DNA from: Algibacter marinivivus
Lineage (GTDB): Bacteria; Bacteroidota; Bacteroidia; Flavobacteriales; Flavobacteriaceae
DNA: 64,000 nt
NCBI RefSeq assembly: GCF_003143755.1
Contig: NZ_QFRI01000003.1
Span: 186,001 to 250,000, forward strand
Direction: 5' to 3'
Positions 5,710 to 19,894 of this stretch are shown one piece after another. The notes beneath the pieces were generated by a model, which saw only the letters and a list, made by a program, of their open reading frames with translations, was not told the origin of the DNA and did no database searches. Within the stretch, counting starts at the first letter, position 1; every line of letters begins with the position of its first letter. A program made the translations under genes and the position numbers.

Positions 5710-5721
5710 GTTACCATCAAT

Positions 5722-6240
5722 TTGAAAAAACTCGGAACATTCATAATAATCGTTTTTATTTCAATAGCATTAGCTGCAATTTATGGAGTTACACACGATT
5801 TTATTACGTCAAAAATATCGCCTGAATTTTACACTAAACTGATATTTTTTAATTTTGGAATTTTAGATGATTATGCACGAGAATTTAACGGAAACTGGAC
5901 TTTTTCCCTGATTTGGGTTGGATTTTTCTCAACTTGGTGGTTTGGTCTTTTAACTGGAATAGTTCTCGGAATATTCGGACTGAAATATAGTGACAGACAA
6001 ATAATGTTGAATAAATCGCTAAAATCCATATTCATCGTTATCGGAATTACAATATTGTTCGGATTTGTTGGTTATGGAATTGCGGAATTAAATCCATCAG
6101 AAATTATTGCGAATTATGATTTGCCATTTGAAATTGAGCACAAAGCGGAATTTAATAAAGTTGCAAAAATCCATAATTTCTCTTATTTCGGAGGAATTTT
6201 TGGACTAATAATCGGAACGTTGAACCAAATAAAAAACTGA
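5722..6240 (+). CDS. Hypothetical membrane protein
   Basis: This 172-aa protein starts at TTG, 12 bp after the DUF2911 stop. It has about four transmembrane segments (near residues 5-22, 62-88, 100-122 and 152-168). I recognise no family. Glycine is encoded by GGA in 15 of 17 cases, while the adjacent DUF2911 gene uses GGA once in six. This suggests a different origin. It is followed after 4 bp by the DUF3784 gene. Confidence 0.65.
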   Translation: MKKLGTFIIIVFISIALAAIYGVTHDFITSKISPEFYTKLIFFNFGILDDYAREFNGNWTFSLIWVGFFSTWWFGLLTGIVLGIFGLKYSDRQIMLNKSLKSIFIVIGITILFGFVGYGIAELNPSEIIANYDLPFEIEHKAEFNKVAKIHNFSYFGGIFGLIIGTLNQIKN

Positions 6241-6244
6241 ATTT

Positions 6245-6550
6245 ATGATTATAGTAGCAATTCTTTTTATTGTTCTCGGAATTTTAATAAAATACGGAAA
6301 AATGTATTGGTTGGTTGCTGGCTATAATACAATGCCGAAAGAAGAAAAAGAAAAATACAATATAGAGGGAATAGCAAATGTATTTCGAAACGTGATGTTC
6401 GGAATGGCTTTAATTATAATTTTTGGATACTTAATTACAAAATTGACTGAGAACCCAAATTTTCAAAATTATGTTTTTTGGACTTCAATAATTATTGGAA
6501 TACCATACTTACTAATTCAATCGAATTCTAAAAAATATAAAAAGAATTAA
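6245..6550 (+). CDS. DUF3784-like small membrane protein
   Basis: This 101-aa protein has an N-terminal membrane helix, then the signature WLVAGYNTMPKEEKEKYNIE typical of DUF3784, then two more membrane helices (about 48-66 and 76-91). DUF3784 has no known function. Glycine codons are GGA in six of seven. It lies 4 bp after the preceding membrane gene and 11 bp before a broken reading frame. Confidence 0.75.
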   Translation: MIIVAILFIVLGILIKYGKMYWLVAGYNTMPKEEKEKYNIEGIANVFRNVMFGMALIIIFGYLITKLTENPNFQNYVFWTSIIIGIPYLLIQSNSKKYKKN

Positions 6551-6561
6551 GAAAAAACAGA

Positions 6562-6663
6562 TTGAAAAACCTTATAAAAATAATTGCAGTTTTAGGACTA
6601 ATCAAATGTCGTAAGAAAATTGCAACTATTCTTATACATAAACATTCTCAGTCTCATTTGTAA
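6562..6663 (+). pseudogene. Truncated lipoprotein-like remnant
   Basis: A TTG-initiated 33-codon frame encodes LKNLIKIIAVLGLIKC, which resembles a lipoprotein signal peptide with its cysteine, then 17 residues that do not continue as a domain before TAA. It follows the two acquired-looking membrane genes. It is best read as the 5' end of a third gene that was truncated. A short chance frame cannot be excluded. Confidence 0.4.
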
Positions 6664-19028: not shown

Positions 19029-19132
19029 TTAAAATAGTTATTTTGGTGGGACTTGTTAACAATTTTCCAATTCATTTAATCCTACAAAATACTTGAATTC
19101 GTAAAAAAATTCTACTAAATTCGCTAACGGCT

Positions 19133-19153
19133 GATATAAGTCATTAAAACGAC
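19133..19153 (-). repeat. 21-bp flank repeat, copy 2
   Basis: On the minus strand this reads GTCGTTTTAATGACTT and ends TATC, matching 176-196 at 20 of 21 positions. It lies 2 bp inside the left terminal repeat of the cassette-like unit. Confidence 0.6.
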
Positions 19154-19196
19154 GTCATATCATCTAAGTTGTAACATATTTGACCAAATCAAGAAA

Positions 19197-19742
19197 ATGC
19201 AGGAATTCAGAAATTGGAAAGAGCTTATCAACCAAGTTTTAATTGACAGTGGCCAATTTGAAAACTCAACTTCTGAATTGATAAATCAAACCGAAATCGA
19301 AACATTTAAATCGACTGACCAAAACTCTCTGACTGAAATTAGAGTTGGATATTTAGAAGAAGACCTTTTAATCTACTTACAAGTCTTCAATCCAAAAATT
19401 GTCGGATATAATAAGTTTGTTGAAGGAGATTATTTTCGCCAACACGATTTTAATGAAAATGGAAAGAGTTATGGAAATCCTGGTTTGGAATTTATAGATT
19501 TTAACAAAAATAGAGTTATTACTATTTTAAAAAATGGTTTAGCTGGAACAGAAATACAGTATGTTTTGAATGGAAAAATATTAAAATCCATTGTTGATAC
19601 TTATGACGAATCTCAATATATATGTAGGTATGATTTTACTAATAGAAACTTTTTCCAAAAATTATTCTCAAAAAGCATTGAAAAAACGGAAGGAATTGAA
19701 AAACGGGAAATTAAATTGAATGAAATTTTTGGTGGAATATAA
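19197..19742 (+). CDS. Hypothetical protein carried by the cassette-like unit
   Basis: This 181-aa soluble protein starts with MQEFRNWKELINQVL and has no signal peptide or membrane helix. The middle part is beta-rich and includes GYLEEDLLIYLQVFNPK. I recognise no family. Glycine is GGA in 9 of 12 cases, a bias shared with the acquired-looking genes at 5.7-6.5 kb and unlike most core genes here. Inverted repeats lie 20 bp upstream and just downstream, as expected for a mobile cassette cargo gene. Confidence 0.7.
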   Translation: MQEFRNWKELINQVLIDSGQFENSTSELINQTEIETFKSTDQNSLTEIRVGYLEEDLLIYLQVFNPKIVGYNKFVEGDYFRQHDFNENGKSYGNPGLEFIDFNKNRVITILKNGLAGTEIQYVLNGKILKSIVDTYDESQYICRYDFTNRNFFQKLFSKSIEKTEGIEKREIKLNEIFGGI

Positions 19743-19894
19743 AAAACGTATTACAACAATGTATAATCGCAATTACGGCGGATTCGACTACGTCCGAATC
19801 CACTCGGAATTACTAAGGCTAGTGCTGAACCTAAAATAATCGCTAATTTAACCCGTAACTGACGGTTATACGAGACCGTTAGCAAAAACCAATC

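Follow-up and report, generated by a model that had tools for sequence, protein, structure and literature searches.

Integrons are the textbook gene-collecting platform, and a better fold of the bottom strand is a known property of their attC sites. Promoterless single-gene cassettes stand in one orientation in the integron array, with a hairpin site at each 3' end, and the integrase gene with attI is located at the array head. Single cassettes far from any integrase are known as CALINs or lone attC sites. Xer proteins of the cell act at dif, where they resolve chromosome dimers. Surveys give almost no integrons for Bacteroidetes proper; IntegronFinder 2.0 reported one complete integron there, in Salinibacter ruber M1 (PMC9024848). 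In a paper on archaeal integrons, the IntI-specific additional domain is treated as defining (PMC9668308).

A stretch of 64,000 nucleotides of the Algibacter marinivivus genome (NZ_QFRI01000003.1, positions 186,001–250,000; hereafter the window) was analyzed. The unit under study lies next to pyrG. With a probability of roughly 85%, it was taken to be a mobile gene cassette that belongs to an integron-like system and is moved between sites by a tyrosine recombinase. As judged from its sequence, the unit is a 710-bp promoterless single-gene cassette that carries an attC-like hairpin of 126 bp and has been inserted at N^TT (Table 1). An earlier note on this DNA had compared it with the cassettes of integrons and suggested that it may be a mobile gene unit, and the analysis of relatives bore this out. 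The positions given in that note for all features were confirmed on re-reading the sequence. In the following, G, C and L numbers denote genomes, contigs and loci.

Table 1. Features of the cassette and of its insertion site (positions in the window)
Feature	Position	Strand	Basis
Promoter-like part of receptor: TTG (19093-19095), 20 nt, TAAATTCG (19116-19123)	19093-19123	+	Fits TTG-N17..22-TANNTT(T/C)G
Left part of receptor: arm TTCGCTAAC, spacer, TGATAT...ATATCA stem with inner TAAGTCATTAAAACGACG, crossover after G19168	19120-19168	+	Alignment of copies, fold
Cassette, TT...G, 710 bp	19169-19878	+	Exactly this interval is absent from the G006 empty site; same junction type in L150/L178
Cassette 5' arm TTGTAACAT	19169-19177	+	Complementary to own 3' arm save two changes
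Cargo ORF	19197-19742	+	181 aa; start 28 nt past crossover
Cassette 3' arm CGTATTACAAC, left end of attC-like site	19747-19757	+	Sequence and own-end rule
attC-like site: AAC - AAT - L'' GTATAATCG (19761-19769) - loop with GGATTCG/CGAATCC hairpin - L' CGGTTATAC (19863-19871) - GAGACC - GTT	19755-19880	+	Recurs in relatives; covariance model R1, E 2.6e-16
Right part of insertion site TTAGCAAAA	19879-19887	+	Complementary to the 19120-19127 arm, one mismatch; abuts left part in G006

Two nested pairs of inverted repeats surround the gene. The inner pair is GTTGTAACA (19168–19176) and GTATTACAAC (19748–19757), and the outer one is GCTAACGG (19123–19130) and CCGTTAGC (19876–19883). Both were found as described in the earlier note, but they are not two sets of transposon-like ends. 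The inner pair can be identified as the arms of the site that belongs to the cassette itself and the outer pair as the split arms of the insertion site, an arrangement that is the integron topology. By themselves the repeats are no rarer than chance: when intervals of 546 bp were drawn at random from the window, 40% had a matching 8-bp inverted pair in equal flanks and 19% had at least two matching inverted words, and a listing of inverted repeats contains 201 pairs. They gain significance only through related sequences. The glycine codon GGA, to which a bias of the gene had been ascribed, is indeed the commonest in the ORF (9 of 13); this means little since it is also the commonest one in pyrG (19 of 43).

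The sequence of the joined flanks without the unit was predicted beforehand, and the genus relative G006 has it (...GATAACGACTGAAATAAGTCTTTAAAACGATATCATACTATTAAAG^TTAGCAAAAATTAAC) at the same position relative to pyrG; an empty site in a relative was one of the checks proposed earlier. In other members of the genus, the pyrG interval contains other genes. A second exact pair was found at a locus that is empty in this genome (C6:175149, L150) and occupied in G008 (L178). The occupant of L178 is a cassette of about 600 bp whose flanks are 80–92% identical to L150 and whose junction is at N^TT. In both comparisons of empty and occupied sites the breakpoints are exact at N^TT, with almost no shared homology there. 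The 5' end of the window unit was taken from the empty site and the homologs; the automated own-end search misplaced it, giving a wrong 7/9 end, because two bases in the arms of this unit have decayed. A resident gene with chance repeats on both sides would agree with the frequencies of the pairs taken alone. However, the empty allele of G006, the presence of the same site in many genomes and the occurrence of the cargo, again with these arms, in arrays of other genomes leave this explanation practically no weight.

The search for further copies of such ends, also proposed in the earlier note, was positive. The non-coding 126-bp element recurs in 14 of the 40 genomes searched, this genome included, and is clustered in some of them; the clusters in G018 and G023 are long rows of small same-strand genes with one site behind each. 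In the aligned copies the inner sequence is common, and about 9 nt outside AAC...GTT vary from copy to copy. The sites share one plan: AAC is preceded by a variable arm and followed by 3 nt and L'' (about 7 nt); after a loop, mostly of about 100 nt, come L', which is the complement of L'', a stretch of 5 to 7 nt, GTT and a second variable arm. In 82 cassettes, each delimited by two successive sites, GTT and the next 7 nt at the 5' end were compared with the reverse complement of the 3' end of the same cassette, and the mean match was 6.39/7, versus 2.79/7 for the two arms of one linear site and 2.52/7 for random pairs. Four loci fetched later and unused in finding this rule served as a held-out set: a match of at least 6/7 was found in 27 of their 31 cassettes against 5.7% of random pairs. 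The sites and cassettes are mutually related, so these counts are not independent. As the arms are complementary across the ends of one cassette, the full stem exists only in the circular cassette, which is expected if the cassette spans from the TT after one crossover to the G before the next.

The fold of single sites in the window was not significant; hence, the comparison was made over many sites. According to computed energies, the bottom strand folds better than the top one in 72 of 73 verified cassettes, and in 68 of them the site has a better fold in its circular form than in its linear form. With regard to membership among attC sites, the site is thus an imperfect palindrome with a better-folding bottom strand, and the crossover falls between the first base and TT. 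The verified cassettes have a median length of 746 bp. Their main ORF lies on the cassette strand in 59 of 62 cases (59:3) and starts at a median of 27 nt past the crossover, so that most cassettes have no room for a promoter. Among additional observations, the sites of L012 (G020:C34) share a long extra insert (CCCGAAACAAGTTCGGG... GGTCGATGATACCTCCGGCCCG), which shows that the hairpin loop can itself carry repeats. Cassettes identical in arms and length recur within one array in L191 and L189 (520 bp three times, 584 bp twice), and this suggests duplication.

The hairpin that follows the gene (GGATTCG at 19780, CGAATCC at 19795) is present at the place given in the earlier note. As a separate terminator it was rejected, since it sits within the conserved 126-bp site and forms a part of it. 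A broader version of this explanation is that all the sites are terminators or RNA elements and that gene mobility is due to ordinary homologous recombination, given that strong hairpins do lie behind genes and related repeats could recombine. This is hardly credible: no known RNA family was found for the site in Rfam, the complementarity of a cassette's own ends would have no role in termination, and the breakpoints described above are too exact and share too little homology.

A transposon-like unit was also considered, in which the variable ends would be terminal inverted repeats, the transposase would act in trans and TT would be a target duplication. The unit does have inverted ends of its own, TT on both sides and, as had been noted earlier, no transposase or integrase inside. 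Nevertheless, the ends differ from one cassette to another, the insertion always occurs at one point of one palindromic type of site, and the units are chained head to tail behind a tyrosine recombinase. The shared ends, transposase and variable target expected of a DDE transposon or MITE were not found, and we know of no transposase requiring cassette-specific ends. We therefore regard this reading as very unlikely, though slightly less so than that of terminators, and the unit is further treated as an integron-like cassette.

No family match was found for the 181-aa cargo protein. Modeling of its structure led to a model with low confidence (pLDDT 57) and no significant fold match. Homologs with 54–59% identity were found in G052, G068 and G233, and all of them are encoded in cassettes with GTTGTAACAC...GTGTTACAAC arms (GTTGTAACAC / GTGTTACAAC). 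Those of G052 and G068 are located in arrays, and the hairpin types and neighbours of the homologs differ from those of the unit in the window. Thus, arrays of other genera hold the same gene that occupies a dispersed receptor, or dock, in this genome.

The left side of the unit is such a receptor, which consists of a promoter and a site, covers about 95 bp and has about 21 copies in the genome, mostly holding single cassettes. The receptor carries the promoter pattern of Bacteroidota, TTG / TANNTTTG (TTG-N17..22-TANNTT(T/C)G). The repeated element found to the left of many scattered cassettes reads TTGACTTTGTAAAAAATTTCAGC-TACCTTCG-TTTAACGTCGGATATAAGTCATTAAAACGACGCATATCCGTAAAAACA^TTAAACGAACC. 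The inner core of the receptor listed in Table 1 has 21 copies in the genome, 16 of them exact, against one for the reversed-pattern control. Four receptor copies are empty (L137, L147, L150 and L155), nearly all of the others are followed by an apparent cassette 5' end, and the window unit occupies a diverged copy. Promoter and hairpin are kept together in records of Algibacter, Winogradskyella, Lacinutrix, Hyunsoonleella, Gaetbulibacter, Flaviramulus and Tenacibaculum, and the promoter pattern is strict in 21 of 33 receptor copies from these genera. The receptor promoter would drive the captured gene.

The covariance model gave 36 matches in this genome, namely an array of 7 sites on C6 and about 29 scattered sites, some of them weak, on C1, C4, C5, C6 and C7. 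A perfect own-end match was found upstream in 9 of 20 scattered cassettes, compared with 5 of 364 with foreign arms. In 12 of the 20, the receptor lies directly to the left of the best own-end match, although it was not a search criterion. Most left junctions of scattered cassettes read ATT; a search for the 5' arm that required GTT mostly failed and one with N^TT worked. Since receptors with A before TT give A^TT on the left and G^TT on the right, the crossover point is fixed. Like CALINs, these single cassettes lie far from any integrase; unlike them, they are found in one repeated promoter-patterned receptor and not in random places.

Several other elements of this kind were observed. A second occupied receptor with promoter pattern and hairpin is located within the window at 145–260 on the minus strand. 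Its cassette (5' arm TTGCCAGTA) begins near 158, leaves the window below position 1 and ends in the site G000:C5:184991-185127, which is followed by TTAAACGAAC. Another part of the window (5710–6652, plus strand) is probably a decayed cassette: at 5710 it has GTTACCATCAATTTG, which resembles a cassette 5' end, and it contains small ORFs and, at 6559–6652, the truncated remnant of a site. One short sequence, TTGGTATGTAATTGCCTGCGGCACGTAGAATCGCG..., stands behind several docks (L138, L143, L221) and in the right flanks of C7:44588 and C4:670506; it is possibly a gene-less or RNA cassette.

Site matches were found in 106 of 120 sampled genomes of the family, and most of the genomes that lacked them are small. 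Across the phylum, 66 of 198 genomes gave matches, many of them few and weak. Canonical IntI was found in 84 of 296 genomes of the wide GTDB phylum and in none of the family sample. The inner core of the site had no exact match in viral contigs that would indicate a phage origin, and the site of the window was not matched in plasmids. No description of such arrays in Flavobacteriaceae was found in the open-access literature. Thus, the system is widespread in this family and apparently undescribed.

The earlier note had recorded no recombinase. None lies in the unit, yet a recombinase family accompanies the system. A search with the IntI profile showed that proteins in nearly all family genomes match it up to position ~180 and again from ~239; the unmatched part corresponds to the IntI-specific insertion. 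Proteins related to one of them stand at the head of arrays. The array-linked recombinases have about 370–395 aa and consist of a XerA/IntI-like core and an N-terminal part of about 100 aa, which has no counterpart in IntI or Xer chains and is predicted to be a folded domain in the structure model. The catalytic residues Arg, Lys, His, Arg, His and Tyr are invariant. Phylogenetic analysis placed 24 array-linked recombinases (support 94/95) apart from 20 IntI (100/100) and from two Xer-like proteins, which are those of this genome; with only two Xer-like proteins in the tree, the order of the deeper branches is not settled by it. XerA, XerC and XerD are the closest to the recombinase core in sequence and fold, but the recombinases analyzed here, unlike cellular Xer, head cassette arrays.

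The linkage of recombinases and arrays has a clear polarity. Fifteen listed loci with more than 1 kb downstream were compared; they had been chosen by the recombinase match and a few also for known sites. Same-strand sites lie downstream of the recombinase gene in 12 of them, and upstream sites in none (0/15). Among the exceptions, L042 and L045 share a branch with only one other member, L017, which diverges from its array, and the protein of L054 has no N-terminal part. In nine loci a candidate attI was found, i.e., a GTT with an arm matching the first cassette, 26–135 bp past the stop codon; in several loci it is preceded by an inverted repeat such as GATAAACACACTAGTGTGTTTATC. The co-oriented array, recombinase gene and attI are thus present together in relatives, and the window unit stands alone. 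In this genome the recombinase gene adjoining the C6 array is broken by a frameshift and a stop. As it is the only array-linked recombinase gene here, either the insertion is older or another enzyme acted.

These properties make the system integron-like in nearly every feature visible in the sequence, including the layout of the cassettes and the array head, the N^TT crossover, the cassette 5' end that completes its own site in the circle and the preferred fold of the bottom strand. By the features tested, it is still not an integron in the strict sense. The arms are about 9 nt long and cassette-specific, the recombinase is mostly co-oriented with the array and carries the extra N-terminal domain, and many dispersed promoter-bearing receptors hold single cassettes. 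In addition, the arms of linear sites do not pair, unlike those of integrons, which means that a cassette must leave an array either despite unpaired outer arms or by another route.

It may be asked whether this is a true but divergent integron, whose IntI lost the insertion and whose attC sites were missed by survey tools. The same layout, the G^TT crossover and the bottom-strand bias agree with this, Vibrio IntI (2a3v) is among the closest solved structures, and NCBIfam labels close relatives as 'site-specific tyrosine recombinase/integron integrase'. On the other hand, no protein exceeded the TIGR02249 cut-off for IntI in 150 family genomes, the insertion is missing from all 24 array-linked recombinases, also in the alignment to 2a3v, and XerA scores equal those of IntI or exceed them. 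Moreover, as the earlier note had remarked for the unit, the cores do not follow GTTRRRY (R', with R'' = RYYYAAC), which fits 6 of 113, below the 11 expected from the base composition of the positions. A divergent integron is therefore a possible but rather doubtful reading. We lean instead, with some reserve, towards a separate gene-capture system common to the Flavobacteriaceae and distinct from integrons, with a non-IntI tyrosine recombinase, cassettes with self-complementary 'barcode' ends and about 20 dispersed promoter docks beside the array, so that the genome could express many captured genes simultaneously from different places (a 'distributed integron').

The following mechanism can be proposed. 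A cassette consists of a promoterless gene and, behind it, an attC-like site. The ~9 nt at its start (TT and 7 nt) are complementary to ~9 nt ending in AA of its own site, and the full hairpin closes only in the excised circle. The tyrosine recombinase, which we infer to perform the reaction on a single-stranded substrate, most likely recognises the folded bottom strand of the site, with the exchange at N^TT. One target would be the attI beside the recombinase gene, giving rise to arrays. The other would be the dispersed receptors of about 95 bp with a promoter and a short hairpin, where single genes would come to lie right behind the promoter. In the window, the receptor between pyrG and a 90-aa ORF upstream of folE has taken up one cassette. 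The sequences themselves show the ends of the cassettes, their exact junctions, the empty and occupied alleles, the linkage and polarity of arrays and recombinases and the shared cargo in arrays of other genera. Points against the mechanism are the broken recombinase gene of this genome, the unpaired arms of linear sites, the different hairpin types behind homologous cargo genes and the relatedness of the sites and cassettes counted.

If this is true, most Flavobacteriaceae hold arrays or dispersed cassettes missed by the usual definitions, and cassette capture needs neither the IntI insertion nor GTTRRRY. It would also mean a second recombinase lineage for recombination at hairpin sites and would open a large reservoir of uncharacterised cassette genes. 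With the promoter docks, the expression of captured genes that are not first in an array would become directly testable.

Two further observations concern the surroundings of the recombinase genes. A divergent gene encoding about 120–155 aa with a zinc-ribbon-like motif (CxxC...GRSDK..C) was found beside many array recombinases (L053:5276-5653, L029:3430-3786, L049, L052, L056, L057, L047 and L039); it had no family match above the cut-off. In L081, which belongs to a plasmid of Chryseobacterium sp. SNU WT5 (NZ_CP041688.1), small genes in the same orientation come after a recombinase gene whose product has 38% identity, as does a gene for a group II intron reverse transcriptase, which is reminiscent of integron-associated group II introns.
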